Shown in pieces: positions 6,001 to 64,000 of a stretch of 64,000 nucleotides of DNA (the first letter of the stretch is position 1; every line of letters begins with the position of its first letter). The DNA lies in the NCBI GenBank assembly GCA_013995675.1, contig VWRR01000002.1:310001-374000 (forward strand), written 5' to 3'. The stretch is from Cyanidiococcus yangmingshanensis (lineage: Eukaryota > Rhodophyta > Bangiophyceae > Cyanidiales > Cyanidiaceae). Below the pieces are notes generated by a model that saw only the letters and a program-made list of their open reading frames with translations, was not told where the DNA came from and made no database searches. A program made the translations under genes and the position numbers.

Positions 6001-6662
6001 CTATGTTGACTTGTCGATCTGCATCGAGATCGGTCTACCCTGGGCGGTCGCGAGCTGTCGCTGGCGATCGATGACCCGTTTCCACCAGAGCACCTCTGCG
6101 TGAACGTTTTCATTCGAAGAAAAGATCTGCATCTGCTCCACCATGCAGATACACTCACCCTCGTACCAGTCCACCCGGCCAGAGCAGTGCACTAGCGCGC
6201 CAACCTTCAGTTCAGGTGAGTGCGCTCGTCCAGGAGCCCCGACGGTTGACTGACAGACGACCTTGCTCAGAGACCCTGTGCATTGCGCTTTTGCAACGGC
6301 TGTGCCGTCGTCAACCGCAAACCTTACACTTGTACGCGACCGAGAAAACCTCTCGAACGACTGCCACATAGGCCAAAGCGCCGTACGTGCACCTTAGCCT
6401 GGGAAAGACGCCATCCCGGAGGCGGCTCGAGCCACTCGCTGCAGAGGCTAGACTGAGCCTGGAGAGCCTCCAGGAACGGCAAAGGTAAAACCGCGACGTC
6501 ACGAAGTGGCTGTAGAACAGCTTGCTCCGGTGAAAGTCGAACTGGTTGTCGAGCTGCGTCCCGAAGCTGGACGGCAAACACTTCCACTGCCGCGGCTGGT
6601 GCAAAGTTGCTTGTTTCCCTGTAGTCTGGTTTCAGCAGGCTCTCGGAAACCACAGGTGTCAT
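6001..6662 (-). CDS. STN1: STN1-like telomere OB-fold protein, multi-frame
   Basis: The coding signal resembles the short plant STN1, a single OB-fold subunit of the CST telomere-capping complex. The last frame (6369 to 6001) carries the clearest match: RFAVDDGTAVAKA, then LKVGALVHCSGRVDWYEGE, then AEVLWWKRVIDRQ, aligning with the VDDGTG, GRVGSYRG and AEILHWLE blocks of the Arabidopsis protein as I recall it. The strand just before VDDGT (YVAVVREVFSVA) lies in a second frame, and the N-terminal region from the ATG at 6662 lies in a third. Both transitions are +1 and fall between about 6325 and 6410. A short intron, assembly insertions or a decayed gene could explain this. RPA2 is less likely because there is no winged-helix tail. 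Confidence 0.5.
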
Positions 6663-8215
6663 TCAAGTCCGTGAATAAACAACCTTTATCTCCTCTTTCG
6701 AAAAAGATGACGCTTCATCCCTGAGATGGGCTTTCAAAGTTTTCCGCGTTCGATAGCAAGGCACCGGGTACGAACCGTCTCTCAGATCGAAGTTGCTGGC
6801 CAACGAGCGCGGCACGGTTTGCGCCGCATGCGAGGCCGCATCGTCGGACCCCCGAACGGAAACTAGTCTCGGGGCACGGTTGCGTAAGCCTGCGGCTGCA
6901 TCTGGAAAGCACATTCGCATCTGCCGCAGGTCTGAAAGAACGAAAAAATGGCCCGTTCGAGCTCAGTTGAAACAAAGAGCCCTAGTCGCGACGGCTCCGA
7001 CGTGTTGCCCCGGGGATTGTTGAGTCCTCGGTCGTTTGCAACACGAGGTTGGCGATTGCCCGGCTCAAGCGAGTACACCGGCATGCTGGCCGTGCACGAG
7101 GTCATAACTAGCGCAATTCGGAGATGGCGTCGTGCTCGTGGCGTCCGGATCAATAGTGCCGCTTTGTGGGGGCCGTCTTCAACCAAAGCATTGCTCATCT
7201 AGATCAAGATTCCTTGATGCTTTCTGAAATACCGAACGCAGCGAGACTCTAGCCCGTCATGGATGCAGGACGAACAAAGGTTTCGCACCGCTTCCGCCGC
7301 GCTTAATGTTCGGCACTAACGTCGCTTCACAGAGCATGTTTGCAGCGCTCATCGAGCACATAGGTGAGCAACGTGTGCCCTACACCACATGCAAACTTTC
7401 TTGCTCAGCTTGGACGACAACATATCCGTTGCGTTGGGGCTTGCTCTTGATAAAGAACAGCCCGTTTGTTTCGCGCAACATCCGATACCATATCCACTAC
7501 TGTTGATCTGCCTTGTATAGACTAGACGACGTTAGCGCCGATTGCCCCTCTGATGCTGGACAACGACAAAGGCCGCGCCTCCATCAAGAACGCCTAAGAC
7601 GCAGGGTCATTCGAATTGGCCATGGCTCGACACTACCTGCGCCAAGCCGTGCACATCTTTTGAGCGGATACCACGAACCACTGAACGGAAACAGCCTGGT
7701 CGGGCACCGAACATCGTAGCGCATCCCCCGGAAAACACCATCCAAAGTGGGAACAGCAATCGCAATTGCCTTCGAACGCCACCTGCATGCCCTGATCTAG
7801 TTCAGGGGCGCCCATTACCACCAGATACAATGCCTGGAAATACATCGAAAGCGGGTATGTCGCAAGCATGAACGTCTTCATGATCAGTCTCATCTTCACA
7901 AACACAATATTCCAGACGTTTCTGGACAGCGGAGCCACGACCGAATCGAAGCCCGAACAGAGTACTCGGCACGGACAAGCAGTCTCGCTGGCGCGTCCGC
8001 TTCCCGAAACGCCCTCGTCGGAGCGCTGGCACAACGATTGCGTTTCGCGCCACTATACAGGCCGCCCGTCCGGGGATTCGGCTCGCCGAAAACGCAACCC
8101 AGAAGCGCTGACGACCGCGCAGCGCGCGAATCGTGTCCGCCCTCCGAGGAAGCGTCCGCGCGCCCTGAGGCAACGGGGTTCCGCGACCGTGCGCAACTGT
8201 GATAGGTGCGCGCCG
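6663..8215. other. Divergent promoter region, STN1 / CTF18
   Basis: A 1.55-kb spacer. The CTF18 frame is open back to an ATG at 7868, but the extra 116 codons lack domain character. Other frames here are short and unrecognised. Confidence 0.45.
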
Positions 8216-17173: not shown

Positions 17174-20100
17174 TTAGGGCGATTCAGAACCCGCCTGTGC
17201 AATGCCTTCAGGCTCCGTCTCGGACTCGAGAGGTGATCTCACCCGATCAAGCGAACGTCGCCTTATCTGACTAAGTCCGTACCGATCTCTCGCAACATAA
17301 ATGTATGAATTGGTATGCTCTCGAATGTGGAGGTATTCAAGAAAACGCTCTTCGTGGGTAATCAGGATCAGCTGAAAGTTTCGCTGGGTCGCTCGTTGCT
17401 GGATCAGCATGGAGAGCGAAGATGCTAGCGATTTCACGTGGAACTCATCGAGGTTGGTCGTGGGCTCGTCCAGAGCCAGGACGCCACAGGCATTTCCGAA
17501 ATTCTCCGCTAACGCGAGCCGGATCAGAATGCACGCCAATACTTTTTGACCGGCTGAGCAGCGACCTCGCATATCGAGCCAGGTATCACCCTGGCGCATG
17601 ACAACTCGATAATGATACGAACGTCGACCGCTGGGCAGCGAGTCAGCGACAACATCCGAACGAATCTCGATGTCGTCAATATCGGAGCCAGTGTAGGTGT
17701 TCTGCCAGAGCTCTCGCAATACCCGATTTATATTGCGCATCTTGAGGTCATGGTAGCGCATGATAGCCAAATCCAAAGCCCGGTAATAGTTCCGCAGATC
17801 TTTGCTGGCCAGCTCGATGGTATCGCATTGGAGACGCAGCGCCTGGAACTGGGCTTCGCTTTGTTCCAAGGCCCGGTCATTCAGCTCTGCGGCGAGCGTG
17901 TGCATTTGCTCCTCCATGAGATCACGTTGACCCCTCAAGTGATGGATCTTTGCCCGTAGGGCATCGGCATCGACTTGGGCCGTCGTAAGATCCTTGTCGA
18001 GCTGATCGTCCGACATCGAACTGCGCATGCGAAAGCGTCCTTTCCATGTGCTGTAACTGCTCGAGCCTTTCATTCAGGCGGCGGTAGCGAAGGTTGTCAC
18101 GGACGGTACGCAGGTAGGCCTCGGCGCTCTGACAACGCCCTGCCGCGCGCTCCATTGCTTGCAAGACTTTCTCCTCCTCTGCAATACTCTGTTGAATCTG
18201 TTGACGACACTCCTCTAGCTGTTGCCGAGCGAGCTCCAGAGCACTCTGCTCATACTGCTTTGATTCTTGAATGAAAAGCTGAAGTTGATTTTCAAGCCGA
18301 ACCTGGTCCATTCGAAGGACATCGTCATCGGAACGCAAGGTTTTCAGACGAGCGAGCATGGTCTCGGCCGCATCGGTTTCACTGATCGTCGACCGCCCAG
18401 CCAAGTGAAGCTCGAGTGTCGCAAGACGAGCCTGCTTCTCAGAACGCATGCAGCGCTGTTGTTCCAGCTCACTTTCGAGTCGCTCGCGATTGCTCTGGAG
18501 TCGTTGCCAATGCGCAATTTCCGTTTCCGTCTTTTGAATCTGCTCGTGAAGTTGTTGAATTCGGACGAGCGTTTGGTGGCGACCTAGTAACAACTTGTCG
18601 AGTTCTTCTTGCAGTTCCATCTCCTCTCGCCAAATCGCATCTTCAGACGCGGAGCGTTCCAGGCCTTCATTCCCAGTCTCCGTAGATACCTGCCGGCTTT
18701 TGGTGGCCAGGTCGGTGGCATCGCAGCTGATCTGCGACGGTCCTGGAGCAGGTGACCCTCCTTGACGCAAACAGGCCAGACGTTGAGCATACCACTGCAG
18801 TTCGCGAGCCTCGGCCAGCTCGTGCTCAGCGATGAGAAGGTCTGCGCGGGCGCTGGCGAGAGCGGCTTCGACCCGAGCATAGTCCCTTTCGCGCTGACGG
18901 ATAAGCGTCACGGAGCGCTTCTCCTGAACCGTGAGAGCGGCGCGTTCCTCCAGCGCTCGCCATTGACGCTCCGCGAGCTCAAGTTCAGTTCGCGGATGCC
19001 TTTTCGTCTGTGACTTGCCTGCTTCGTTCAGTTCGACACGCCACTGGTTGAGCGTGGCCTCCGCATGAGCAGCTTCAATGACTCCGCTAAAGGAACGATC
19101 GCAAACCGGACAGGTTTTGTGCTCTCGCATGCGCTTCTGGATCTCATCCAGCCACTCCCTGCGACTATTCCATCGGCATTCGGCAATTTCCAGCTCATGA
19201 ATACCTTGATTCAGAGCAGCCAGACGAGATTTAAAGCCGTCCACATCCGCTGCATCCGGGGGCAGGTTTTGATCGAGCGCTTGGAGGCGCTGACGCAGGG
19301 CTCTTCGACGCTCCGTCTCCATTCGTTGGATGGTGTCCAGCACGCGGGCCTCTACTTCCAATTCAAGAACCCGGTCGCGTGCAGCCGAGCGTTGCTTCTC
19401 TCGGAGTGACACCTTTTGGTCCGCATCGGTCGGGCAAAGAGTAGCCATATTCCTCTGTGCAAGAAACTGGTGAATAAACGCGATCTCCTCGTCACGGAGA
19501 GTACGTAGAGCCTCTTCGAATGCACATGTGCCTGCGTTTCCATGGCGTAACGACAGACAGGTTGCCGTTTCGGTGCACACTAGCTTGGTGCGCGCTCGTC
19601 GACAGGCCTCAAGGCGCTCCCGGATTGCAGCCACTCGTTGTTCATACAACGGATGCGACATATCCGCGTCACATGTGTGCTTCTCCGCTTGTAACTGCGC
19701 CAATCGAGTGGTCTCCACCGCCAAGTCCTCGACACTTAGCGGCATCGCATGCAATCGTTCAGTGGTGGCTGCGCAGGCTTTCTCCAAAGCCATCATCTCC
19801 ATTCGGAGGGATTCCACTTGTTCTCTCTCTGAATCGTTCTGAAGCTTGGCTTCTTGCTCCTTTTGGACCGCTTCTTTCCACGCTTGTTCTGCTTGCTGTA
19901 TCTCGGATTCGCGACAGCGCTGAATTCGCGAGAGCTCAGTTAACACGTGCCTGCCTGCCTCCTCGACTGACTCATCCGGAATGCTCGACGCTGTCAATAG
20001 GTGTTTGCGCTGGACCTCAAGGATCAGTTCGGTACAAGCTGCTTTTTGTCGCTCTACAGCGGCTAGTCCATTGGTTAGTGTGGCGCTCTCCATCTGGAGT

Positions 20101-21137
20101 TTTTGTTCTCGTTCCCGGAGCGACTGTACTTGTCGTTGTATTCGCTCTCGCTCTTCGCGCATCTTTCTGTGTTCAGCTTCCATGTGCTCGTACTTGGTGG
20201 ATGCGCGACTCAAGGTTCGCTCTAGCTCCTCTGTCTCTTCAGATAGTTCTTCGCCAAGTTCGCGCCAAAGTCGATCGCGCTCCTCGATGCGAATGCGGGT
20301 CTCGTCAAGGATGCCTTCCAGTTGCTGACGGAGCGCCTGTCTGCGTCCTCGTTCGGCCTCCAGCTCAGCGATTTCTGCCAGCTTAGAGTTCATCTCTTTT
20401 TCGAGGCAGGCGAGCGAATCTGTCCACTCAAGGCATCGGGCCTGCATGCTTCGCCAGTCCCTCTGTTTTTGTTTCAGCGCCTCGAGACGCTCCCGACATC
20501 GCTCCAACTCAGAATGTAGAATCTTCAGCTCAGCGAGCTTCTGCTGGGCGCATTTCTGGATCGCAACCAGAGCCTTGGCATAACCTCGGGACTCGAAAAT
20601 ATCATCAAAGCGCTCTTTGACTTTCTTCGGGTCCTGCAATGGCCAGAGTGAATCCTCCTGATGCACGAAGATCACGTTCTCTAGGACGGCTTGCCGTACA
20701 CCGAGAAATGCTGGAGTCATCGCGTTGATGTCGTTGCAACGGTTGGAGGTTTTGGTACGTTGTCCAGTTTTGTCCTTAATGCTGAGGCTTGTCTCGACGG
20801 TACTAAACGTGTGTTTCCCGCCTCCGGACAGCCGCAGCTGGAACTGACGATTTACTGTGACGCTTCGGCCAAGTGCATCCTCAAAAAGCAGACGGATTTT
20901 GGCTTTGGTTTCACTGGTATCGCGTAGACGAGGATCGTGAACAAACGCAGCACCCTTGTCCACGAGAGGCGGCAACTCGCCAATGGTGGCGAGGCGTAAG
21001 CACTCAACAATCGTCGTCTTACCGGTGCCATTCGCCCCCAAGATGACCGTAATTGGCGTCTGGAAACTCAAACGTTGTTCTTCATCTGGACTAAAGCTTC
21101 GAACTCCAGAGAACCCCAGTTTGATTAACCGAGACAT
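17174..21137 (-). CDS. RAD50: DNA repair ATPase RAD50, split over two frames
   Basis: RAD50 is the SMC-like ATPase of the MRE11-RAD50-NBS1 complex, which senses and tethers DNA double-strand breaks. From the ATG at 21137: Walker A GANGTGKTT at 34-42, Q-loop region ENVIFVHQEDSLWPL, a long coiled coil, and the zinc hook CPVC at about 676-679. The C-terminal half, with LDMRGRCSAGQKVLA (ABC signature) and VLALDEPTTNLD (Walker B/D-loop), lies in a second frame (18073 to 17174). The first frame continues into nonsense and stops at 17922. The join is a +1 step between about 17985 and 18055, in the descending coil just after LRYRRLNERLEQLQHME. No segment of the family is missing, so the gene looks complete, about 1320 residues, apart from the frame step. 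RAB18 starts divergently 285 bases away. Confidence 0.92.
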
Positions 21138-21421
21138 GGGCACATCAGCGCGGATACCCTTGCCGACAGAGCACGAGGTTTTGCCGGCAACTCCCGATCC
21201 GCGTACCGTTGGCGGACTCGATCGGGCGATCGATCGGAGGCACGAATGCGCGCTGCAGCATGGCATGATTTCCTGCGGACGAATGGGGCGTGCTCCGGGA
21301 GCCGCCACCGACTCACCTCGCACCCTAGAAGGGGCGTTGTCTTGAAAGAGCTCGTGACGAATCCCCTCCAGTGAAGCGCATGAAGGCTTATCGGTAGAGA
21401 GGATCGGTTAAAATTTCAGGG

Positions 21422-29721: not shown

Positions 29722-31803
29722 ATGACGGACGCTGTAGCCGCTCGACTTGGAGAGGCGCGACGGGCGCTCGAGCAGGCCCTCACGCAAAACCAGCACGAGC
29801 GGGTGCTGGCGCTATGCGATCAGCTTTTGGAAGCACCAGCTGACCAGCTGTCTTTGGGCGACAACATGGACGACAGGGACTTGTTGCGGGCCCGCCTATA
29901 CCAAGCACGTAGTACGGCTGGTGCCCACCTCGCCCAAACGGAAACTGCGCTCAGCGATATAGAACAAATTCCCGAGCGCCTTCGCGATGAGCAGGTATGT
30001 TTCCTGCAAGCCTATCTTCTATATAGAACAAGGCGTCTCAAAGATGCACTCCAGCTGATTCCAGCTTCTCTCTCAACAGAAAGTGGTGACGTTATGACGG
30101 ATGAGGCGCGACGATGGGGCCTTTTGCGTGCCCAGGTCGCGTATGCACAAGGAGACCTGGCTCAGGCGGCCAAGGTTTGGCGACAGCTCATCGTCCATGG
30201 ACCTGATAGCAATGAAACTGCAGCGATTTGGTCGAACTGGATCGCTGCCTTGAGCAGCAGACTTGATTCCAAGGCCGACAACGATGACTGGGGCGAGGCC
30301 ATCGCAGCGATTCAAAATGCCCGGATCTTTGAGGGTTTCTTCAATCTTTCCATATGGCATACGAGTCAACGCAAGTACGAATCGGCGATGCGTTGGCTTG
30401 ACGAGGCACGAGCGCTTGCAATTGCCGAATTAGGAACGGACCGCCACCATGATGTAGCCCGCATCGACGTTCAAAGAGCGTGCCTTTTCCAACTTCAGGA
30501 TCAGGATCAGCGCGCGCAAGCGTTGTATCGAGACCTAGGGACGTGGCGAGGAACCCGCGCTCTAGTTCCGGTTGATGGGTCTGCGGACTGGGTTCGAGCA
30601 TTCAATGCCTCGGTTCTGGAAGGCGATCTGGCGGCATTGCTGGACAGCGACCCCAGTTCATGGACTCTAACGGAGTGTCAGCGACAGCTTCTCCTCTGGA
30701 ATCGAGCGATCGCAGCACTCTCGAGCAACAAAGCACAGATTGCGCTAGCGACGGTGGAAGAAATGACATTCGATCCATTGGATCGCATCGTGTTGAAGGC
30801 ATGTGCGCTGGATGCGCGCGGTCGCCACCAAGAGGCAGAGCAAATGCTGCTGGAACACCGACTGTCCATGCACGCTGCGCAGATGCGCCTTCAGCGTGGT
30901 GATGTCGGTGGTGCGCTGGCGCTGCTTGAGCAGTCGCCGGGGCCGTCGCTACAATCCAAGTCGAACGATCTGCCAGTAAGGAACCAGCCTGCTTGCGTAT
31001 TGTTCCGTGCCACCTGGTATCGGCGACAAGGATATCTTGACAAAGCGATTCAGACGCTGATCGAAGCCGCTAGCGATGCGCTACCCATTCGGCGCCTCTA
31101 CGCGGAGTTGCTCCTAGAGAGCAAACAATTCGGAAGCGTTCTAGATTCCATACCGAATGATGCCTGATACTGATCCGGTTTTACAAGCTCTACCGCCTGA
31201 TCGCCTTGAGCTATCTGGATCCAGACGCGGCGGAGCGAAGGCTACCGAAGCATTTCGAGGCAGGCATCGCTGCAGCAGCAGCAGCAGCAGCAGCCGTTCT
31301 GGGACCGCATTCAGAGCAGCTATTGGGGACTGAGTCGGACCCAGGTACAAAGCAGCGCCCGCTGCCGAATCAGGATGCCAAGGAAAAACGACAACAACAA
31401 GCTGCTGACGACCCGAACAGGATGCAGACTGACCGAATCGATCAAGAATCGTCAATCGCAAAGCGGCAAAGTCGTCGACGTGGCCATCGTAGGAGACGGA
31501 ACCCGCTGCCCCCAAGCTATCGAGCAGATGCCTTCACCGCCGGATCCGAGTCGGTGGTTGCCACGGAGCCAGCGTCCAGGTTTTCGTCGAAGACAACGCC
31601 GCCCGGCCGGGTCTGGAGCAAACGCCCCCACGGTGGCTGGCACCACAGACCGTGCAACTCAGGGCAAAATCGAAGCCTCGAAAGAACTCGATACCCACGG
31701 GCGAACGCCTGCTGCAGCAGCTGCTCTGCCTCCAGCAACAGGCGCTGCCATGAAGCTGGCCGGCAAGAGGCGCGTACGGCCATCACGCTCTAAACGCGCC
31801 TAG
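29722..31803 (+). CDS. SRP72: Signal recognition particle subunit SRP72, multi-frame
   Basis: SRP72 forms the SRP68/72 dimer on SRP RNA for co-translational ER targeting. The long first frame (to 31167) is an array of TPR-like helices with the family's FFNLSIWHTSQRKYESAM and WVRAFNASVLEGD segments. The C-terminal RNA-binding motif, PPDPSRWLPRSQRPGFRRRQ followed by RATQGK, corresponds to PDPERWLPxRERS and GTQG of the family and ends at 31803. Between them the coding signal passes through three +1 steps, at about 31162-31168 (GCC TGA T), 31185-31195 and 31528-31535. The middle segment reads YRLIALSYLDPDAAERRLP, which fits the final SRP72 helix pair. The three steps add up to one codon. A GTG at 29701 precedes the chosen ATG. 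Confidence 0.8.
31272..31294. repeat. GCA trinucleotide run in SRP72
   Basis: Seven GCA units lie within the SRP72 coding region, encoding a polyalanine run in the frame that carries the protein signal. Its length may vary between strains. Confidence 0.8.
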
Positions 31804-44320: not shown

Positions 44321-45308
44321 TTAGGAGCGTGTTCCTGTCTCCTTATCCGTACGGTCAGTCGACATGTTCTTAGCATCATCGGATGAATCCGCTGGTCCTT
44401 GTTGCTTCTCGTTAGCAGCACGAGTAGCTGCTTCTGGATCTGGAATGATTTGGCCCTTCGTGAGCCGGAAGAACTCCACTTCAGAACCGCCAGCTGCCGG
44501 GAAATGCTCCCACGGGGACTGAAAGTCAAAGGTGCGGAACTCCTGGGTGATTTCCAGCGGTTCATAGACGACGCGTTTCTCAACTTCGTCGTATCGAACT
44601 TCGTCGTAGCCAGATAACTGGAAAGTCTTTGCGCAACGCGTGATAGCTCGTGCCGTAGTCGCTCAGAATCCGACGTAGATCCGGATGATTGGTGAAGAAG
44701 ACACCAAACATGTCGTAGATCTCGCGCTCAAACCAGTCTGCACCTTTGAAGACCGACGTGGCCGACTCGAGCGGAGTCAGCTCATTCACATATGTTTGTA
44801 CGCGAATCCGCGCGTTGTAAACAAGGGACTGCAAATTGTATACTACACGGAATCGATCCTGTCGATCAGGAAAGTCAACCCCACAACAGTCAATGAAATG
44901 ACGGAAACGACAGGTCGTATGATCGCGCAAAAAGCGCAGTACGCGCACTGTGGCATCGGGCGGGACCTCGAGCACGATCTCACCACCCGAGTTCGCATCG
45001 TGGCCGTGGTGAATGTAAACACTCGAGATGAGCCTAGGTAGCATTTCCACCAACGATGCAGCAAAGCGTTTCTGTGACTCCAACCGGGACGGCTCTACGT
45101 GGCTCGGACCGGCACGAAACACCGGCTCATAAGAGCGGTTCGCGCCCGCTTGTTCCCCCGTCGGCTGCCCAGCAGTGCTCAAGCAGCGGACGCAGCTTGC
45201 TCCATCCCGCTCAGGTGAAGAAGTGATCAGAACGCGAAATATCTTGCTACGATCATAACCTGCTCCTGATGAGAAAATCGGTCGGAGGGAACGCCACAGG
45301 CTCTGCAT
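44321..45308 (-). CDS. NDUFS3: Complex I 30-kDa subunit NDUFS3, two frames
   Basis: NDUFS3 (NuoC/Nad9) is a core matrix-arm subunit of respiratory complex I; here it is nuclear with a presequence-like N-terminus of about 70 residues. The first frame carries [37 protein letters not shown] and [13 protein letters not shown], ending in LRKDFPV. The rest of the universal RKDFPLSGY motif (SGYDEVRYD), then [18 protein letters not shown] and a polar tail, lies in the +1 frame and stops at 44321. The step is confined to 44615-44618 by the motif; skipping one G after CCA would restore exactly KDFP-LSGY. The total length equals 3n+1. The ATG at 45308 lies 83 bases downstream of a good TATA box. Confidence 0.93.
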
Positions 45309-45390
45309 GAGCTTCTACCAGGGGCGACGTGCTCGTTCAGTGCCAGTATCAACACGACGGTCGTTGTTCTTGGTGCCGATAAAGAGCGCC

Positions 45391-46285: not shown

Positions 46286-46322
46286 CGTACACAAGGCATG
46301 CCAGAAAGTGTCAATAGGAAAA

Positions 46323-48196: not shown

Positions 48197-49055
48197 TCAA
48201 GCGAAAGCGTATGCCTGAAACCGAAGTTTCTCTGCCAAGTACCGATTCGTTGCCAGAATGCCGCGCCCATCCAGCACAAATTGAGCTCCATTAGGGAGTA
48301 AACACACGCCGCCAGCCTCCTCGACGAGCACTTCACCAGCGGCGAGATCCCATGTATAGGGGCCCCACTCCGTGACCATATCGAAGCGGACCACAGGCCA
48401 CATACGCCATATTCAGCGCAGCGCTCCCAGTGCTTCGAACAGCCTGCGTCCCGTTCTCTAATATCGATCGAACCATCTCCAACATGGTCTGAATTTTCGA
48501 AGGCGAGCGATCGCTACCGTACTCCGTCGCAACACAGGCATCGGCCAGCTCGCTGACCCCGCTGCAAAAGACCCGTTTCCCGTTGAGATAGGCGCCATGC
48601 CCTCGCCGAGCTGAAAACATCTCCTCCATAATAGGGTTATAAACCACGCCTAGACGGACAACGCCGTCCGTGATCAAGGCGATGGATACCGCACACATCG
48701 GAATATGATGCACAAAGTTGGCTGTACCATCAATTGGATCGATCGCCCATGTCGGCGGATCAGAGGCCTTCACCCGGAGGCTCTCAGGTCGGCCGTCGTA
48801 GCCCTCTTCACCGAGAACTCGATGTCTCGTACTATATCGCTCCAAAATGCGCACCCTACAGAGTTCCTCTACGGCACGATCGGTGTCCGTGACCGGATCA
48901 GTGCGCTTCTTCACGTTATATGGTGTGGTGTGCCCCCCAGCTGGCGGCGTTTGAAACGGCCAGTCACGATAGAATGCCTCCCGAATGAGCTCGCCACACT
49001 CTCGTGCTAGCTCTTCAGCGAAATCAAACGCCAACTCCAGTTCCGTCTCCTGCAT
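48197..49055 (-). CDS. IMPA: Inositol monophosphatase family enzyme, two frames
   Basis: A Mg2+-dependent, Li+-sensitive phosphatase that releases inositol (or histidinol, or galactose) from its monophosphate. Metal-site motifs are complete: TDPVTDTDRAVEE, LGEEGYDG, and the signature WAIDPIDGTANFVHHIP. The second metal motif WDLAAGEVLVEEAGG lies in a +1 frame that takes over near 48395-48405, just after LNMAYVACG; the first frame stops at 48333. Joined length is about 286 residues, normal for the family. The ATG at 49055 starts directly before helix 1; an ATG at 49181 in frame would add 42 residues of unclear nature, possibly a targeting sequence. The exact substrate cannot be told from the sequence. 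Confidence 0.9.
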
Positions 49056-49819
49056 TGGCGGCTTCACTGCAATGCAAGCACACGCGTGGCCGTAGCCAGC
49101 AGGCAACTCGCATGCGAATGTCACCGAATGCGTGTCAGTGCGTGCGAACGCGCTGCGCATCGATCGGTGCGTGCCGTCCATCGCGGCCGCTGAATAATGC
49201 CATTCGACTCGCCACCGTCGACCAGTTGTACAGATCAATCGCTGGAGTCAGGATGGAAAATTCTTCGGTTCGATTTCTCGTTGACGAGCCGTTCGAGGAG
49301 GAATACTCTAAATCATTCGGGCTGGATTTGTTCGAAACTCGTCAGATGCTGCAAGCGTCCGTGGTGTCTGGGAGACAACGCGATGCAGGCCTATCCTCGT
49401 CGTGGCCTGGGCCTGCATCATTGGAGGGCAAACGTGCCTCTGTGGCGACCTCGATTGGCATGCGCTGAATTGAGTGCAATGTTTGCTGACTGTAAGGTGC
49501 GAACTGGTTTAGGCCGTGATCGACGAGGCGGTCTTAATGCCTATTGCTGATTCCGTAGATCGGGGCCTTGCTGCGGATAACGCATACGCTTCTCCAAACA
49601 GATGTCCAAGTATAGACCCGGGCGAATCTGTGTCAGAGCCTTGCACCCTACGTAGTGTTTCCTATCCAGGACGGGATGCGGCGTTACTCGATGATGAGAC
49701 CTTCAAGTACACATGCGTTTCGCTTAAATTCAGGCATTAACAGTGCTTTCGCCGCTCCGGGAACAAGCCGCTTCATCGATGAACACATACATACGCTTAT
49801 CGGAGAATGTACAGATGTC

Positions 49820-49828
49820 TATAAAAAG
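49820..49828 (+). promoter_or_regulatory. Candidate TATA box, copy 1
   Basis: TATAAAAAG inside the first 70-base repeat, upstream of the CBS gene. Confidence 0.4.
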
Positions 49829-49889
49829 CTTTCTGTACCAATTCATCGATGAACACATACATACGCTTATCGGAGTATGTACAGATGTC

Positions 49890-49898
49890 TATAAAAAG
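49890..49898 (+). promoter_or_regulatory. Candidate TATA box, copy 2
   Basis: TATAAAAAG in the second 70-base repeat, 149 bases before the preferred CBS ATG. If this one is used, transcription would start near 49925, downstream of the two earlier in-frame ATGs. Confidence 0.45.
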
Positions 49899-50046
49899 CT
49901 TTCTGTACCAATTCGTTCGTGCCTATAGACATACGTCCATAAAGAACCCTGACGAATCTAGATCCAATCGAGGAAATGGCAAAAGAGCGGCGAATCTCTG
50001 TCACGAGGAGATCACAACGCGCAGTCGAAATGACCCAATTGTGCTC

Positions 50047-51671
50047 ATGTATGCGGTATCTCCGACTGAACGCTACGAATTTCTTCGGGAGCTAGTGGAT
50101 ACGCTTGGGGTCAAAACTTATGAGGCGCGTTCATACCAGTCCAGCTCGCTCGTCTCTTACCAAGACGAACTTGTCTCTGGTTGCAGAGAATGTCATCGAG
50201 CGCACATGCGGTGCGTTCGGAGCAAACTGCACCTGTTTTGGGAGGCACCTATTGGTAAGGCGTTGCCCACTTACCAAGAGGCGTTCTTGCCACGCACCGC
50301 GTCGGCGAAACGCGCCGAAGTGACACGCACTGAGGCGGCACCCGTACGTGTTGAGATTGCGCCCAGTGGCGCCGGCGACTCTTTGCTCTTTCTGCATGAA
50401 GCATCTTCAGTGCGAGGTGCCCTGGATGAGATGGTTCAGCGCAACGCTGCTTTCGTGCTCGTGGTTGGCGACCCCTTCAATCGGTCGTCGCCCAAGCCCA
50501 GTATTCCAGCAACGACACCTGATATCGTGCGGATATCGAGAGAGACTCACAACAGCGACGCAGACGTTGATACGGAGCATCACGCCGTGATTGGGCTTTT
50601 TACGGAACGGGATTTTCTGCGTTGTCTGTCTCAAGCGCTGGTCGAGAATCAAATGACGGAGCAGGCAGGCTTTATCGTTGCGTCTTCGAGATACGACAAG
50701 TCCACTGTATGCCCGCTTCGGAACGTTGAAAGTAGCCTCCAACACAGTCTTTGATGCTGTCCTGGCGATGCGAGAGCGCAATATTCAGAGCATTCCGGTT
50801 ATTCGTGAAGAGGAGCACGAAGAGGACTACATCTTGCCTGGTGGACAAGGGCCAACTGGAGCCAAAAATACTGAGGCCGGCTTTACATTAGCGTTGCCGC
50901 CGCGTTCATTCCGAGGCGTTTTGACTGCGCGAGATATCGCGCGCTTCTTTCTGGTCCAAAACCTGAACGTACAGGATGCCGTGTGCAGCTTTGAATGGCC
51001 CGAGGGTTCTAGCAGTCGATCGCACGTCGAATCCCATCCGATCCTGCTGCGTCATCTCCTCTCCTGGCGTTTACGTCGGCTTTATGAAGGAGCGCAACCG
51101 CTCCGCAACGTGTCCCTGGATGACGACGTGGTTTTGCACGAATCGGAGCATTATGCCGTCGTGGCGGTGCCAAAGTCGGCTTCAGTGCGCGACGCAGTAG
51201 CCTGCCATGGCCAGACATAACGTGAGTACCTTGCTCGTGAATGAGAGCGGCAGTGCTGGCTCCGATGCCGGTGGACCCTATCCGAGTATCTTTGGCGTCA
51301 TCACGTTACGGGACCTCATGAGCCATGTCTTTCACCCGGGACGGAATCCGCTCGCGCTCAGTGTTGAGACACTCATTCGCGAACGCTGGGCAGCGTCTGG
51401 TGTGTCCGGGCCAAAGCTCTCCCTGGAGGAGCGCAAGTATGGCATCTCACCCGATGATGAGGTCGCCCACGCTTTGCGTTTGCTCGGTGGTATGAACGAA
51501 CGGCACATCCCTGTATATGTCTACAACGATGCAGACCAGACGAGCAACTGTATTGCCATGGTTAGCGTGAAAGAGATGCTTTCGGGGGTGCACGCGGCCG
51601 AGCAACGGCGACGTCAGCAGCGTTACCGCCGCGCCGATCGCGCCTCGAGCGCTGCCAGCGGAAGTTTATGA
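50047..51671 (+). CDS. Four-CBS-domain protein, three frames
   Basis: A protein with two Bateman modules. CBS domains bind adenine nucleotides and regulate kinases, transporters or enzymes. CBS1: LHEASSVRGALDEMVQRNAA and AVIGLFTERDFLRC. CBS2, reached after a +1 step near 50670-50690: VASNTVFDAVLAMRERNIQS, IPVI and FRGVLTARDIARFF. CBS3: SASVRDAVA, then a second +1 step near 51203-51210, then MARHNVSTLLVNE and IFGVITLRDLMSHVF. CBS4: YGISPDDEVAHALRLLGG, NERHIPVYVY and MVSVKEML. The order resembles SNF1 gamma-type or CBSX proteins, but no glycogen-binding or kinase part is present, so the partner is unknown. ATGs at 49849 and 49885 are also in frame; 50047 is preferred because of the promoter layout. 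Confidence 0.82.
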
Positions 51672-52736: not shown

Positions 52737-55700
52737 TTATTCATCCGTTGTTGTGGCTGAAGGTCGTGATCCCTGAACGTTCTCCATGGCGCCTCGAGAC
52801 GACCTTGTCCCTGCGGCTGGCGGTGCGTTGTTCACAGCCTGTACAGGTGGACTTGCCCCTGATACATCACCTGGTCGCACCGATGCAGCAGCTACGTTTC
52901 CAACAGCTGGGTCGACGCGAGGAGTGCTCGGCGCTGACAGAACTGCTAGATGCATCAGCTGTTGTCTCACGGAGACGAGTTCATGTCGAAGGGTTTCGAT
53001 CTCGCCACGTAAATGGCTCTGATCGATCCGCAGATAGGAGAGCTCCGCACGCAGCTGGTCTACATTCTCTGCAGAAGGACCATGGCCGCTATCGGTCGTG
53101 GTGGCAACGCCGCCAGCGACGGCACGCCCACTAAGATACCCCGGGGCAGCCGTCGGCGCACCACCACTCGTTAATGGCATGGTTCCCTCTGTCGCAACGG
53201 GCACACCGTGCTCGTCCCTGGGCGAGACGTAGGAACGAACGCGTCCGCTGGTAGATCCACTATCGGGAGCACTCGGACCGCCTACGTGCCCCGCGCCTGG
53301 AGCCATGCCAGTTGCATTCACTGGGTCTGCTGCAACCACGGACCCGTGCGTGTTACCAGCAAGAACAGCGGAAAGTGTCCGTTGTAAGCCCCGAGCGTGA
53401 TGCAGCAACGCCAACAGGTCCTCCTCGGAGACATTCGCGAGCGGCATATGCGACGTTGTTGCGCGATTCATTCGGCCTGGCAGCGCAGAGGAGGCCAGCT
53501 CCCCCTGGCCAGTTGGCGAGGTCGATGACGATACACGGGAATGCGAAAGCCAATTCGGGTAGTTTGCAGTGCTCGGTGCACTTGTGTATGCTCGGTGGCC
53601 CGAGCTGTTATTCAAATGGGTGTGGGCCGACCAACGAGAAGGCGGTGGTGGCGGCGACTTGGGTTTCGGAGCGCGTGGTGGCGAGCGCGTCGCACTCTGC
53701 GGTTGCTGAAACACACCATCCAGAGCAGCCAGTGAGACGTACAAAGCAGGATGTGGTGAAACATCACCAGTGGACGCATTCGATGCATGATGGGGTGCTG
53801 CCCCGGCCGCGACGCCCGATGATGTGGTCGTTCGCGCAGAGGCCGGCTGAGATGCCGCCTGCTGCAACGGAATATCGACGACCTCGAAACGCCCATGGCT
53901 CGAGCGACGGGCTTGTTCGCCCGGTAGCGATCCCGTCGATGGCGTATGAGCCAACGAGTTGCGTGCGGAAGACACAGCAACCGTTTCTGTGCCTCCAGGA
54001 TCCATCATCCGAGCATGGCCAGCTTCAACCTGATGGAAACCACGACCTGGTGGATGCCCAAGCGCTCCTGGCAACGGCACGCCCTCACTTGTCGATGTGA
54101 TCGTTGTCGATGCCTCATCAGTGGCGGCTGACGTCGCTGTCTGAATACCGATCTCTGGCGGTGCCGTATTCCGACTAGATCCAGCGTGTGGGTAGAATCG
54201 AGGACGAATGCTGCTATTGCTGCTGCTGTCGCTAGGACACGGCTCCATTGGGGCCGCCCCTGGACGTGGACTTGATCGGCCGTACATATCGTCGGCTGTG
54301 GCGTCTCTGGTGATGACATCCTCGTGTACTAGACAGGCGGTACTGGGTGAAGTATGGGGACGAGGAGGTTCGGTATCGATGAGCAGAAAACGACCTGCTC
54401 GTCGAGCGGGTCCAGCCTCAGTTCTCGCGGAGATATCCACCGTTGATGCGCTTCCCTTCAAAGAGCGCTACATCCGGTGTTGGGGAAGCACGCGGTGGCG
54501 ACAAGAGCGAAGGCGACAATGTCTCAGGTGGGGACCCCACAATGTCGGCTATCCTAGACGCAATCGCTGTCGATTCAGACGATGCATCCGCTGTTGCTGT
54601 TCGCTGAGCCTGACGCTCGCGTTTTGCTTCGGCGAGTTCCGGCGTATCCGCAAAGTTCCACCCACTGATCCCCATTGCGTTTCGTCGAGGCTCCGGTGAG
54701 CGTCGCCCGATCTGCGAAGTCTGTGACTCGACTGCGTTCACCGAACCACTCGAGGTAGCATGATTGGACCATGGCTCGCGTCCAGACAGGCGCGCACCAC
54801 CTCCAGTCGTCGCGACATGACCACGGCGCAAGGAGATACGCTCTTTCTCGGAGAGCGGATTGAGCTCCAAGGGAGGCATCTTCGAGAGCATAACGGTGGC
54901 CCAGTCAGGTTCCAATGGAAGCTCTTTCTTCATAAAAGGGTGCTCAAGCAGCTCGGATGCAGAGGGCCTCTTTCGTGGATCCTTCTGGAGACAAAGCTCG
55001 ACGAAATCTTTGAACGCAGCGCTAAATCGCCCCGGATGCTCCAGTGTTGGCGGAGGCCCTTGCAGCGTCAGCTGCAGCACTTTCATTGGAGCGAAGCGCT
55101 CGTATGGTGCACATCCCTGGGCCAGCTCAATACAAGTGATCCCAAAAGACCATATATCCGCCTTGTAGTCGTAGCCCGAAACTTGCTCCATAACCTCCGG
55201 TGCCATCCAGCATGGTGTGCCGACAAAAGTTTGTCGCAATCGGCGAGAAATTCCACTCTCCAGCATCAGACCCAGGTAGGTATAGTCCGTTAGAAGGACA
55301 CGCGCATCAGGAGTCAACAAAATATTGTCGGCCTTGATATTGCGGTGAATCTGTCTGTTCCGATGGAAGTATTCCAGGCCCCTCAGGGTGCCATGCAGAA
55401 TGTAGCGTATCACAGCCTCGTCTGGAAAACCTTCGGGATAGAGCTGGTGGAGAACCCTACCAACGGGTGTGCCAGCTACAAACGGCATCACGATCCATAG
55501 ATGATGACCCACCGAGAATGAAGTCCGGTATGGAACCACATTCTCGTGTGAACTCAGCGACATGACTCGAATCTCCTTGATCAAATCCTCTAGCGAGACC
55601 GGAAGACCCTCCAGGTTCACGACCTTGATCGCAACAGCCTCGTTATTCACAGCAGGACAGACAGCTCGATAAACAGCCGAGCTTTCCCCATGCCCAAGCT

Positions 55701-55785
55701 CTTCAAGAAACTCGTATCCATCAGGTGTTACTGGATAGCTTTGAGACGAGGAAACAGCCACCCTACTCGATAACGTTTCCGCCAT
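52737..55785 (-). CDS. FRAY/OSR1-like STE20 pseudokinase, two frames
   Basis: A protein of roughly 1015 residues. The N-terminal kinase fold (about 20-285) is of the germinal-centre OSR1/SPAK/FRAY type: YEFLEELGHGESSAVYRAV, VAIKVVNLE (Lys54), GTPCWMAPEVMEQVSGYDYK and the subdomain XI block DPRKRPSASELLEHPF. Two catalytic motifs are changed: HRD is HRN (149) and DFG is DYT (167-169), so it is predicted to be inactive or severely impaired, like STRAD. The first frame stops at 54418 after GKRINGGYLREN. In the +1 frame (from 54461) the protein continues with RRAGRFLLID and later SHGRFEVVDI, matching the GRFxV elements of plant FRAY-like kinases, then long Pro/Ser-rich disorder, a short coiled coil (LRAELSYLRIDQSHLRGE) and an Ala/Pro tail. 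The ATG at 55785 is clear. Confidence 0.85.
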
Positions 55786-57508
55786 GATGACGCCTGCAAC
55801 GCCTGAAACGTCTCAACGACCACACACGCGCCACTGCACCTCAATACGGTTGTCTTCTGGCCAAAATCCAAAGCCCTAGACGTCCAGATAGCGTCCTCGT
55901 CTCCCGAACGGTACGTTCAGTGCGGTGTAGCGACTCGAGTGCTGGCCAAAGTGCCCGCGAACCGAACGCGTAACGAGTCGATACGTCGCTCGCGGGGACG
56001 ACACGCCCTGGGGCCAAGTCGTACCCTTTTGTTGAGCGCTGCGCTGAACGCCATTCGTGGTCGGCGATCCCCACCGGCACGCCCCTGAATACATCCTGTT
56101 CGCCTCTATGCGATGGTCGATATTGCTGGAAATGATAAACTGAACTGAAGCCAGCTAAAAGAGACAGATATATGTTTGATCCATCATCTAGAGGTAGATC
56201 CATGGATTGTACGATCACGCACAGGATCATTTCGCAGTTTATGCGACGGAATCAATGAAATCAGAAATGCACGAATCAGACATGCCATGAATGAAGAGAA
56301 TCAAACCATCATTGATCCTTGGATTAGGTGATCGAGTGAATGCACGAATCAGACATACCATGAATGAAGAGAATCAAACCATCAATGATCCTTTGATTCG
56401 GTGATCGAGTGAATCAGTCATTCAACGCATGAACAAAGAAAGGAACGAAACATACGAATCCATCAATGAATCATGATCACAATCAGTCGTGAAGATAAGT
56501 AGAGAACGCGCCGACAACAAGCCTCTCCTCGGTGACGGGAGGGATGCTGGTGGCGAGCGCGCGTCTTCCGGCAAGGCCGCGTGGCCACCTGGTTGGCTCG
56601 CCGCTTGGCATCGAGCCGCGTGCCCGACGCGCGGCGAAGCGCGTGCCTTGATGGGGGCACTCCACAAGGTCGCTCGAAACCTCGTTCTGTTTGTACAGCT
56701 GGGACTCCTCGCCGGAACCCATAGGCGTTACGGTTCGTAAACGAGGTTTCACAGTTGCCTCCTAGTGGCGGAACTAGAGACCTTGTGTGCACGTTTCTTC
56801 TGCCGTGTTCGAACGCGAGGAGAGAGGGTACCGCTTCCACGAGGACAGGTTTGGGCGGAGCGGCACAACTACTTGTCCGCGCAAGCCAGGTGTTCCGGCG
56901 TTTTTCTGCACCAGAGGTGGCTCTTCCACTCAAGGTTCTTAGCAGCGTATATGCATTTCGGAGGTGCTGAGTGTTCGAATCGATTGGGCGGGTGCACTGC
57001 GAAAACCCTTCGATTGGTGCCCGGAAGAATCAGCCAGCGTGTTCGTTTCAGAGACTCAGAACCTGACTGATTCCAAGTCGCTCGAGCACCAAGAAACGAG
57101 AGCATTTGTTTGGATCGATCATCTCGTGGACCATACTCTGCACTGGAGCTCAACTGGGCACCAAGTTTAGAACCGTGTCGGCATACAAGCAACGGACACT
57201 ATTTGAACTAGAGGCGGCAAGCGTGCTCGAGCTAGAGCTATATTCTGCTTTGCTTCTGCTTACAGCTATTCATCGTGTCTGGACGCGATATTTGGCTCGC
57301 GGTGTGTTGGTTGCTGGCTCGTTGCCAGGCGAAGCCTCGTCTGGGTGGCGCCATTGCTGGAATAGACGCAGCGGTTTGTATCGCACGCACTGGCTCTCAG
57401 TGCAGTTCGGCCCGCCTACATAGACTAGCGAGATTGAGTGCGCTGGTGCAACCGGAGACCTCTGGCCCTTTGACGTTTTCATCGATTCCTGTTGCCGCTC
57501 TCCAACGA
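55786..57508. other. Divergent region, pseudokinase / unrecognised gene
   Basis: A 1.7-kb spacer containing an AT-rich tandem duplication at 56267-56412. A plus-strand frame at 57106-57423 includes a hydrophobic run (SALLLLTAIHRVWTRYLARG) and may be a 5' part of the next gene. Confidence 0.4.
56267..56412. repeat. Tandem repeat, 73-bp unit, two copies
   Basis: The unit starting ATGCACGAATCAGACAT occurs at 56267 and 56340 with about four differences. It lies in an AT-rich island of TGAATGA and GAATCA words upstream of the pseudokinase. Confidence 0.9.
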
Positions 57509-59363: not shown

Positions 59364-60073
59364 CCCCTGCGTTCTACGGAGCGCCGGAAGAGGTCCATGG
59401 AACAAACTTTTCGATAAACGCAATGCTGCCCTAGACACGTCATGTGATTCTGTACCCTCGTTGAGACGCGAGACCAAAGGCGACGCCACTGTTTGGCGTT
59501 TGCGATGAACGCTCAGCGCAACACCGATGCAATGAAAACCAAAGTTCGCTTCGTTAATTGATCCGAAACGCTTGGGAACGAACCCGCTTTGCCAGCACTC
59601 GTCACCCGAATCAGAATTGCAAAATCGAGCGCAGTTTTCATAGTCTTCATCAACGCATGCGACTGGAGCGCGCGCTCGCACTTGTCGCTGTGTGTGAACG
59701 ATAGCGCATACTTCTGTACTCGTCGAGAGGTGAGAGCTTTGCTGTCACGAGCGAGTGCACATCGAAACAAGGGCGATCAAGACCTCACGCCCGCGTGATC
59801 GTTCGAAACACGTACCCGAACAAGCTCCCCAAACCTAGCTTGCAAGCTCAACTGCCACTTGCTCATGAACAAGCGAGTATCGTTCCTACTCCATAGAGGA
59901 GGGCGCCGCTCGGATCGTTTCGAGAAACCAGTACAATATGGTATTAAAATGGATAACAAGGTCTATCGTGCGGTAAGCTGTCCAAGCGAAGCGCTCGGCG
60001 CGTTTTCGTCCCAGAGCCGTTTTGTGACCTGGTTTGTTGACAGCCAGTGGCGTCGACGTTGGACGCACCCTCC
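59364..60073. other. Intergenic, unrecognised gene to SEC63
   Basis: A 710-base spacer between plus-strand genes. A TATTAAAAT element at 59942-59950, 124 bases before the SEC63 ATG, is the only promoter-like feature seen. Confidence 0.45.
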
Positions 60074-62597
60074 ATGAAGTTCGGAAGCGATGACAGCTAT
60101 GACTCTAGCACCCATGGCAAGTACCGTCCCAAATCAGACATGAACTACGACGGCGCCTCGGCCCAGGTGTTCTTCACCTGTTTGCTGGGTTTGCTTTGCT
60201 TCGGCCTGAGTGTGTGGCGCTTGCGTCGTTGGTTTCGGCAACGGGCCAAGTCGCGTCAGGTTCAGACCGCGTTCTGTCCCTGTCAAGGTTGTCGAACACG
60301 GCGTCGGGCTAAGGAGAGGAGTCAACGACGCCGCGAGCGCTTTATGCGACTGGCAAGCAGTGCCTTTTGGGTGGCGCTCTGGGCTCTGTTTCTATTCCAG
60401 TTATTTGCGCTCTATCGCCGAACTCGAAACGCATCTGACTCGGGTGCGCTTTTCGATCCTTATGAGACGCTTGGAGTCTCTAGGCGGGCCAGTCGTGAGG
60501 ACGTGACTCGAGCGTACCGAAGGCGGTCTCTGGAGTTGCATCCGGACAAGAACCTCGACAACCCAAACTATCGGCCAGAGGAGTTTGTGAACCTGAACAA
60601 GGCCTATCGGGTACTGACGGATCCAGTCGCTTTGGAAAATTATCAAAAGTACGGGAATCCAGATGGTTATCAGGGGACGCGATATGGGATCGCTCTGCCG
60701 AGCTGGCTGGTCGAACGAGGCAACCTTGTCCTAATCGGTTACGCGTTATCTCTGCTGTTTGGTCTACCGATTGGAGTCGGTCTGTGGTGGCGTCGTCGAG
60801 CGCGTCTCATCTCCGAGAGCGTCAGTCAAGAGACGTATGCGCTCTTTGCCGAATTCTTGGGTCAATCGACAGCGATCAAGTTTCGGAATTTGCCTGAGGT
60901 ATACGGGGCAGCGCTTGAATTCTCGTCGCGAACGCCGTTCCAAGCTGAATACGGAGATCAAGAAGCCATCAGCTTGGTGTGTCAAGCGCTAGAGAATAGC
61001 GGTCGCTTTGACCACCGTGATCAACGCCTTTTTAATCGCGGATTACCGCATTTTACAATGAATAACGTATTGTTGCATGCCCACTTGGCTCGTTTGAATT
61101 GGCATCGATTTCCGGTGAGCATGAAGCGAATGAAGCGGAATTTGGAAATACTGCTCGCGCACATGGATTGTATCATCCCGGCGATGGTGGACATTGCTGG
61201 TGCAGCGCCGCGACCTGAGGTCATGCAGCGTTACCAGAGGATCTTCTCCGTCGGAGGCTATATCGATCGGGTGCTGCGAGTGGTACAGCTGGAACAGAGC
61301 CTCTGCCAAGCTATGCTCCCCAGCGAGAGTGAGCTTATGCAGATACCGTGGTTCGGACCCAGCGAAGTCAAGGTATGTAATACGAACAAACGTTTCGGCG
61401 TCGATGGGATCCGCACCGTCGCCGAACTGCGCAAGCACGTCTGGGAGCCCGACGTGGCGGCGCTGGTGGCGGCCCAAGGTGCGGATGCACTGCTTCCAGT
61501 GGATCTGCAAACGAACTCCGCAGAGCGCATGAACAAGTCCACAAAACGCAGTACAACATCACTGCATCCAAACGTGTCTCCTGCAGGAAATAAGAATGCC
61601 GAGAACGCCTGCGACGGATCGCTTGCTGCGTTGCGATTGGGATGGATCACGACTACGCTCCTTGATGCGCATGTTCACCGATGCTCAGCTCGATGATATC
61701 CATCTATTCCTCTGTCGGTACCCACGCCGAGTCCAGCTCGAGGTCGTCGAACCTTATGTCGTGGACCAGGATCGCTCCGATGAGGAGCACGATGTGCGCG
61801 ATTCATGCATACACGCCTGCGATGCTGTGACACTGGAAGTGCGGCTCTACATCGAGCGCGGCATCGTAGCAGAGGCACTAGGTCGGCAGCAGTATCATCC
61901 GTGCCGCCGGCACTTGCCCTTTGAGAAGAAAGAGTATTGGTGGATCATTCTCGGAGATCGCAAAATGAATTCGATCGTTGGCGTTCGTCGTCTGAGTCTG
62001 ATTCAGGCTGAAGCGGTGCAATCGTCGTCGCCTGAGCAGCCTGTCGCCAGCTCCAATGGGTCAGCGCCGGCTAAGGTGCCGGAAGAAATGGCGTCTCCTT
62101 CGACGAGTGCCTCGAGCCGTAGCTCTAACGACACCGCTAGTAGCGCTGAATCGAGCACCGAGAAGCGCCACACCCTGGTGAAACCAGATGTCTCGGCATC
62201 CATTGGGGGTGCGCAGGTCGACAGGCTTCAATGTCGGTTTCAGTTCATGGCTCCGCCCCAGGTAGGCACATGTAAGTTGGTGGTGCACGCCATGCCAGAT
62301 TGCTATTTCGGACTCAATCGCCACGTCAACTTGGATGTCGAGATCCATGACCACAAGCTACCCGAACCGGAGACCCACTACTTTGATCCCAGCGACCTCA
62401 GTGACGACGAACAGGATCACACTCGTCCAGCAGCGCCACCCAACGTTGAGCAGATGGCGGCGCAGAGCCCATCGGTCGATTCTAATGAAGCAACTCATGA
62501 ATCTCCGCCGAAGCGCGGAGCGCGCTATTCACCATCTGATCAAAATGATGATTCGAGTGGTGACGACGCTGTGGAGATCGATGGCGAGTCGGATTAG
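60074..62597 (+). CDS. SEC63: ER translocon protein SEC63, two frames
   Basis: SEC63 recruits BiP to the SEC61 channel through a lumenal J domain. From the ATG at 60074: membrane helices at about 32-48 and 97-113, the J domain DPYETLGVSRRASREDVTRA with HPD at 156-158, a third membrane helix (NLVLIGYALSLLFGLPIG), then the helical Sec63/Brl domain. After a +1 step between about 61600 and 61680 the C-terminal part follows: LRSLMRMFTDAQLDDIHLF, the FN3-like segment with YWWIILGDRKMNSIVGVRRL, and a Ser-rich acidic tail (SSGDDAVEIDGESD) of the kind phosphorylated by CK2 for SEC62 binding. The first frame would stop at 61696. Two Cys pairs (FCPCQGC) between helices 1 and 2 are unusual. Confidence 0.92.
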
Positions 62598-62983
62598 AAT
62601 GCGTGGTTGGCCTTCCCATTCCACCGCTCGAATGTTGGTGCATGGTGAAACAGGCCGAGCGCCGACGAACCCTCTTTCGTGTCAGTCGTTGAGACCCACA
62701 CCGGATCGCACCGTCGAGACAGACGCTGAACAAAAACCGATCGCCATAAAGGGCCCATGAACAGTAGTATCTATCGTCACGCCTTATCGTGTGCTGCCTT
62801 TCGAGTATTCAGGTTCCGCTCGGGTCATGGAGCCGCATGCATTCGTCAGATGTCGTGAATGGCTGCATCGAGGTTTGTGTCGACATCGTGGCTTGCCTTC
62901 GTACCGCGTTCGGAAAGACGCCGCCTCCGCATACGGATCTGTGGGCCCGCTGTGTCTACCCTGATCTACGACCTTTCAAGCGT
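62598..62983. other. Convergent intergenic region, SEC63 / MAP kinase
   Basis: A 386-base spacer at two gene ends without recognised features. Confidence 0.5.
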
Positions 62984-63122
62984 TCAAAAGTCTCGATACG
63001 ATTCGGTAAAACTCTCCGGCGCCTCTATCATGACAGTGCTATTGCCGTCATCGTCGCTCTGGCCCCGATCGTCGCCATCTAAAGCGTCAAGCCGATCGCG
63101 TGTATCCTCATCAACCTCTTCA

Positions 63123-64000
63123 TCAACATCGATCATCTCGGGGATACTGGCGTTCCGAAGCATTTGCGGATGTATCATTTCTACGAGGGGATCCTGACGC
63201 GACACTATCCGTATTTGCATTCTGCGTTACGTTGCTGTAATCGCCATCCATTTGGGTGCTTTTTGCAGTGCCAGTCGCATTCGGAGGCACCGCCGCGAGA
63301 CGCGGAGGAGGCACTGCTTTCGGCCCCGCTGCTGTGGCGGCTTCAGGACGATTTCTCGTCCATCCCTCGACCTGATTCCACATGGTGGCGAGCTTCTCTT
63401 TCGGCATGCTGGCGTAGGCTCGATCTCGTCGCACACCGGCTCTTTGTTCATCGGCCAACGCTGCGCGAAAGCGATCCGCCTGGCTTGGAATTTCGTAGCC
63501 AATCGAGTCCCCGTGAAGAAGTTGCTCCCGCATGTCCGGGTGATAGTGCAGGATCTCTTCCCAGAACAGAGAGCGAAGCTGAGCTGCCGTCAATTGCTCC
63601 CTCTCAAAATAAAACTCCTCAGCTGACAGCGGGTTGCCCGTCACGATCGATTCTGGGGCGTATAGACCTCTAAAGTAAACATGCTGTAGTCCCTCCAGAG
63701 CCGTCAGACGCTTGTCCGGGTCGAACTGGAGCAAATTCTCCAGCAAGTCCAGTGCGTCCGGGGGGGCCTCTAGAAAAATCTCCGCAAAAGGTCGCGGTGG
63801 CCGCTTCGGCAATGAACGCAAATGCTGTTTCGCTTTCGGATTCCGCACTTTGGCGATCGACTCCTCATTTGGGGTTCCGAGGAGTTTCACGATCAACTCC
63901 AGTTGGTGAAAGCTATTAACCCCTGGGAACAAAGGTTCTCCATGATTCAACAATTCGGCAAATATGCACCCGGCTGACCAGATATCAATCGCCGCCGAGT
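63123..64000 (-). CDS. MAP kinase, C-terminal part (partial)
   Basis: The frame enters from the right edge and ends at 63123. It begins in kinase subdomain IX, AAIDIWSAGCIFAELL, followed by PLFPGVNSFHQLELIVKLLG, LLQFDPDKRLTALEGLQHVY and the MAPK C-lobe extension FYFEREQLTAAQLRSLFWEE with ILHYHPD. The extension and long tail resemble plant TDY-type MAP kinases (or ERK7/8). The N-lobe and activation loop are outside the window, so the subclass and activity cannot be judged. An acidic frame at 63220-62984 (IDVDEEVDEDTRDRLDALDG) overlaps the end in the +1 register and may be the true C-terminus. Confidence 0.88.
   Translation of the reverse strand, partial: SAAIDIWSAGCIFAELLNHGEPLFPGVNSFHQLELIVKLLGTPNEESIAKVRNPKAKQHLRSLPKRPPRPFAEIFLEAPPDALDLLENLLQFDPDKRLTALEGLQHVYFRGLYAPESIVTGNPLSAEEFYFEREQLTAAQLRSLFWEEILHYHPDMREQLLHGDSIGYEIPSQADRFRAALADEQRAGVRRDRAYASMPKEKLATMWNQVEGWTRNRPEAATAAGPKAVPPPRLAAVPPNATGTAKSTQMDGDYSNVTQNANTDSVASGSPRRNDTSANASERQYPRDDRC

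Follow-up and report, generated by a model that had tools for sequence, protein, structure and literature searches.

One-base frame changes of a single sign in conserved genes of a Cyanidiococcus yangmingshanensis draft assembly are very probably residual insertion errors

The window analyzed here is a stretch of 64,000 nucleotides, positions 310001-374000 of contig C12 (VWRR01000002.1) in an assembly of the red alga Cyanidiococcus yangmingshanensis that comprises 12,072,675 bases in 20 contigs with a GC content of about 55%. It carries genes for RAD50, an SRP72-like protein, a cyclin-dependent kinase (CDK), NDUFS3, IMPase, a CBS-domain protein and SEC63, together with a kinase-domain open reading frame (ORF), the tail of a MAPK-like gene, STN1, a MED17-like gene and a gene at 57-59 kb. 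An Rfam scan of the window returned no match. Many of these genes do not run through in one frame. The frame changes that were checked are as follows.

18017-18026, reverse strand: RAD50 (ORFs 17174-21407), one +1 change, aligned to P0016 (18020) and P0017 (18023) and also called by the codon model
31140-31192, forward strand: SRP72-like gene (from 29698), two +1 changes, at 31165 and 31187-31190, aligned to P0013 and P0014
31527-31536, forward strand: SRP72-like gene, third +1 change, at 31533 with both P0013 and P0014
34003-34042, reverse strand: CDK (ORFs 33185-34772), +1 change between the N-lobe and the remaining kinase domain, also called by the codon model
44615-44622, reverse strand: NDUFS3 (ORF 44580-45314 and on), +1 change, from PDB matches of both frames and the frame display
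48380-48390, reverse strand: IMPase (ORF 48333-49247 and on), +1 change, from Pfam profile continuity
50660-50700, forward strand: CBS-domain protein (49825-51671), first +1 change, codon model (50678), with CBS pieces in two frames
51190-51222, forward strand: CBS-domain protein, second +1 change, codon model (51204), with an ORF overlap of only 20 bases
54418-54467, reverse strand: ORF 54418-55812 with a kinase domain; the next ORF, 52737-54467, lies in the +1 frame; codon model
61568-61696, forward strand: SEC63 (60041-62597), +1 change, aligned to P0002 and P0003 and also called by the codon model
63185-63226, reverse strand: tail of the MAPK-like gene, +1 change, codon model only (63198)

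All 12 of these changes were +1, and they occurred on both strands. Eight were backed by homology (three in SRP72 and one each in RAD50, CDK, NDUFS3, IMPase and SEC63) and four by the codon model, a phased Markov model with frame-change states. SEC63, SRP72 and RAD50 were each aligned to two relatives with a frame-aware aligner that was free to pick +1, +2 or -1, and it placed one, three and one +1 changes, respectively, and no other change. For SRP72 and RAD50, the two relatives gave sites that agreed to within 0-3 bases; for SEC63 the agreement was to 42 bases, the site there lying in an unconserved linker (61568-61610) and the old-frame stop ending at 61696. The first two changes in the SRP72-like gene are about 22 bases apart, and the first may sit up to about 25 bases earlier. 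In the CDK, Pkinase positions 1-70 were matched in one frame and 69-263 in the next, and the two frames match consecutive parts of CDK9/CDK12. The change in NDUFS3 falls within the conserved KDFP-LSGY stretch. In IMPase, Inositol_P positions 6-206 are followed by 207-262 in the +1 frame, and the -1 frame had no Inositol_P match. The call near 54420 may represent either one shifted gene or the join of two neighboring genes, since the upstream ORF has a complete Pkinase match and the junction lies at its stop. The first-pass annotation of the window had described every frame change in conserved genes as +1, on both strands, and had found no clear -1 case. Both statements agree with the 12 changes checked here, and the first holds nearly as well outside the window; it corresponds to ORF geometry only in the MED17-like gene, in the gene at 57-59 kb and in STN1, which has two changes and no more than a sub-threshold Stn1 hit (E 0.038).

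The codon model was applied to a sample of 304 kb, made up of the window and 24 loci of 10 kb with at least one locus per contig. At a penalty of -10, 20 +1 calls and no -1 call were obtained (two-sided p 2e-6), ten on each strand and spread over 10 of the 20 contigs. The 13 calls outside the window were significant alone (p 2e-4), and the window, with 7 of the 20, showed no clear excess (p 0.12). Looser penalties gave 29 +1 calls and one -1 call (1 of 30) at -7, and 32 and four (4 of 36) at -6. As a control, single bases were planted into, or removed from, copies of intact genes; the right sign was recovered for 149 of the insertions and 150 of the deletions, out of 160 each, and the remainder were missed. 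Because planted insertions and deletions were recovered equally, the sign bias is not a product of detection, and the earlier view that a pattern of one sign is too strong for random indels is borne out. In 160.6 kb of sequence called as coding, the 20 calls amount to 0.12 per kb (0.13 when corrected for 93% sensitivity), or roughly one extra base every 7-8 kb.

Five Pfam families were also tallied over the whole genome, using hand-picked neighboring same-strand matches that follow on from each other in the profile yet differ in frame. This gave 17 switches, of which 14 were net +1 and three were net 2 modulo 3. A net-2 switch can be either one -1 or two +1 changes. Two +1 changes are credible given the closely spaced pair in SRP72, although true -1 events may be among the three. 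The two matches of the Cpn60 switch lie directly next to each other, and HSP70 on contig C7 is broken within its NEPTAAALAYG motif. On contig C1, at least two frame changes lie close together in a chaperonin gene (208051-209635) and likewise in an HSP70-like gene (892214-893542), which suggests locally poor sequence. Short introns with a length of 1 modulo 3 were considered as a source of such switches, and some gaps between family matches are indeed long, for example 605 bases at 308k on contig C7. At the aligned sites, however, exactly one base is extra and the flanking residues are conserved, and C. yangmingshanensis is nearly intron-free, with about 35 introns in the whole species (PMC13353863 Table 1). 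We therefore assign almost no probability to introns of this kind.

A second possibility was stop-triggered +1 frameshifting of the type described in Euplotes, in which internal stop codons in many genes cause the ribosome to advance by one base. The pattern shares several features with that system as it is described in PMC10235951, namely many conserved genes, the +1 sign, and sometimes several shifts in one gene. In Euplotes the shift takes place at a stop codon, in contexts such as AAA TAA (PMC10235951), whereas here the contexts are not shared and, for 25 of 29 estimated junctions, the old-frame stop is more than 3 bases farther on. The remaining four are within 3 bases of it, compared with 8.6% of 474 detected planted insertions. 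The distance from shift to old-frame stop is about 750 bases in a kinase gene on contig C11, at least 84 bases in SEC63 and about 30-40 bases in NDUFS3. Old-frame stops were somewhat nearer than for the planted insertions (median 30 versus 57 bases, p 0.008), for which small numbers and weak calls, the sole account offered, may be responsible. The relatives have no stop codon at the SEC63, SRP72 and RAD50 sites, and all six of their predicted proteins are full length across these sites, so that the shift is not conserved. Stop codons were thus rejected as the cause of the shifts, most sites being far upstream of the old-frame stop. The positions of the shifts largely refute stop-triggered frameshifting, and its probability is in our estimate close to nil. 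The first-pass annotation had noted that most sites have no stop at the switch, which the junction estimates confirm, and the Euplotes-like recoding that it offered as the biological alternative falls for the same reason, as the stop codon that defines such recoding is absent from the shift at 25 of the 29 junctions.

No sequence motif took the place of the stop codon. Some of the placed sites read GCCT or CCTG/CAGG, but the CCTG/CAGG motif was present in 9 of the 29 site windows with 9.8 expected, and it was rejected. No 4-mer was clearly enriched in the 29 site windows; the best, CACC (17 versus 9.8), is unremarkable given that all 4-mers were tested. Homopolymers of 3, 4 and 5 bases occurred in 25, 11 and 2 of these 29 windows, with 24.4, 9.7 and 2.1 expected, and so showed no excess. 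As the site windows reach about 90 bases in width, a weak motif could be hidden in them.

These comparisons also bear on the proposal that the DNA is correct as it stands. The alga would then cope with extra bases dispersed among its essential nuclear genes because sense codons are efficiently decoded with a +1 shift, with neither a stop nor a fixed context. Such decoding is compatible with the DNA alone, and the frames join residue for residue at conserved motifs in NDUFS3 and HSP70. One extra base in otherwise intact conserved genes is also what has been described in PMC5009743 for mitochondrial genes of birds, turtles and glass sponges; those inserts are organellar and recur at a few codon contexts, whereas the present ones are scattered over nuclear contigs and have no shared context. 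Against the proposal stand the lack of any enriched 4-mer or homopolymer, the extra bases outside long frames and the near-identical kinase copy that needs no shift (both described below), and the absence of the word 'frameshift' from two genome papers of the species in the open-licence literature. A search of the same literature for Cyanidioschyzon with 'programmed ribosomal frameshift' returned nothing but a paper on cyanobacterial CO2 concentration. If the proposal were true, a nuclear genome that breaks triplet reading without any signal would be remarkable; we regard it as extremely improbable.

Contig C11 holds two near-identical pairs of stretches (L015/L029 and L030/L031; 99.0% and 98.7%), one inverted and one direct, with chaperonin and kinase genes. 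In the kinase pair, which is 98.7% identical over about 4 kb, a frame of 1071 codons is intact in one copy and split by a single extra base in the other. A further 2-base gap is found upstream, and the copies also differ by substitutions. In the 99.0% pair there are three one-base gaps (the extra base is in one copy once and in the other twice) as well as a 2-base and a 6-base gap, and these gaps cannot be polarized. Because the duplicated stretches differ by substitutions too, some of the one-base differences may be real. This favors, to that extent, the view that the extra bases are true genomic insertions, arising either in decaying genes or through an insertion-biased mutation process. The affected genes (RAD50, SEC63, NDUFS3, SRP72, CDK and HSP70), however, are conserved, and most of them are essential in other species; decay would produce changes of both signs, which the codon model detects equally. 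Real insertions are in our judgment very unlikely to account for the pattern.

Extra bases were also observed in a subtelomeric repeat (for example L051 and L059), for which 34-41 matches were listed, mostly at contig ends and graded in identity from 100% to about 66%. Among 12 aligned end pieces there were three extra bases confined to a single copy, one in each of three pieces, and no one-base loss confined to a single copy. For the copy on contig C8, all 18 other copies at 97% identity or more are one base shorter (34 matches listed). For the neighboring block, counted at 97% identity or more over at least 219 bases (41 matches listed), 16 of the 18 other copies are of equal length, one is +1 (contig C4), one is -3 and none is -1. 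No frame that includes the C4 extra base exceeds 85 codons, but frames of 110-114 codons span the C8 site. The C8 and C14 copies may be coding in part. All three copies with an extra base (C4, C8 and C14) are at contig ends without telomere repeats, where read depth would be expected to be low.

The telomere repeat itself, AATGGGGGG, is that given for Cyanidiococcus and Cyanidioschyzon in PMC13353863, and it was found at contig ends of the present assembly. In the outer 400 bases, the exact repeat was present at 15 of the 40 ends and missing from 25. Both ends bear it in C3, C6, C13 and C19 only; one end of C5 shows a degraded form. Published assemblies of C. yangmingshanensis have 12.0-12.1 Mb, 20 chromosomes and a GC content of 54.6% (PMC9812998; PMC13353863 Table 1). 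In that of Cho et al. 2023, 19 contigs are telomere-capped at both ends and one at a single end (PMC9812998 Table 1), and Illumina correction is stated to have been repeated until zero conflict was left (PMC9812998). The NIES-4659 Ha1 assembly has 20 capped contigs (PMC13353863 Table 1) and was corrected with Pilon (PMC13353863). With 25 of 40 ends lacking the repeat, the present assembly is neither of these two. It probably corresponds to the draft of Liu et al. 2020 (J Phycol), whose project PRJNA564651 is named in PMC10272599.

Taken together, the sign bias, the spread over contigs, the lack of a stop or motif at most sites, the full-length proteins of relatives, the intact near-identical copy and the extra bases outside long frames indicate that the frame changes are very probably one-base insertion errors left behind in a long-read draft of C. 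yangmingshanensis that had not been corrected. The platform was probably PacBio. Raw reads of long-read platforms can hold many more insertions than deletions, and in a consensus of low depth, as we infer for this draft, some extra bases would survive. Accurate reads would presumably lack these bases. Each extra base would displace the rest of the gene by one base, which gives the +1 sign on either strand. One study of raw PacBio reads reported about 8% insertions and 3.2% deletions (PMC7671305). In another PacBio dataset, deletions (8.8%) exceeded insertions (2.9%; PMC5964698 Table 1), and false deletions predominated in a long-read bacterial assembly (PMC12007338), so that the +1 sign is not implied by long reads as such. 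No ready statement on the insertion bias of consensus sequence was found in the open-licence literature. The long-read-only assemblies with gene-fragmenting indels described in PMC12007338 resemble the present one in that scattered one-base indels break conserved genes; there the indels lay within and between genes and were mended by accurate short reads. Those errors were mostly false deletions tied to homopolymers (PMC12007338), whereas here the extra base predominates and has no homopolymer link. Points counted against residual insertion errors are the three net-2 switches of 17, the -1 calls at loose penalties, the nearer old-frame stops, the lack of a homopolymer excess and the possibly coding subtelomeric copies. 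Residual single-base insertions from a long-read platform had been proposed in the first-pass annotation, and this proposal is supported by the genome-wide bias, the extra bases outside long frames, the intact copy and the mismatch with the corrected assemblies, the platform being inferred.

The pattern of one sign is thus, with high probability, an artifact of the draft assembly and not a real feature. Extra bases at the rate estimated above break many genes of the draft, and gene losses, short proteins or 'recoding' deduced from it would be wrong for this reason. A corrected assembly of the same species is preferable for use. Three predicted proteins from an 849015-base contig (P0001, P0012 and P0015) are truncated forms of SEC63, SRP72 and RAD50, with 540, 481 and 932 amino acids; broken frames have therefore already spread into predicted protein sets.

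Two further observations concern possible introns. The tRNAs of this red-algal group are known for odd introns. Among 16 tRNA matches in the assembly, several are 83-123 bases long (for example C12:73230-73352 and C3:132028-132130), which fits tRNA introns. The tRNA genes had been considered as a non-coding test for extra bases and were set aside, as many are over-long and probably intron-bearing. In-frame stops were also seen inside otherwise in-frame matches to a chaperonin (C18:203671-205608) and a tRNA synthetase (C1:376532-377890), and these are perhaps introns.
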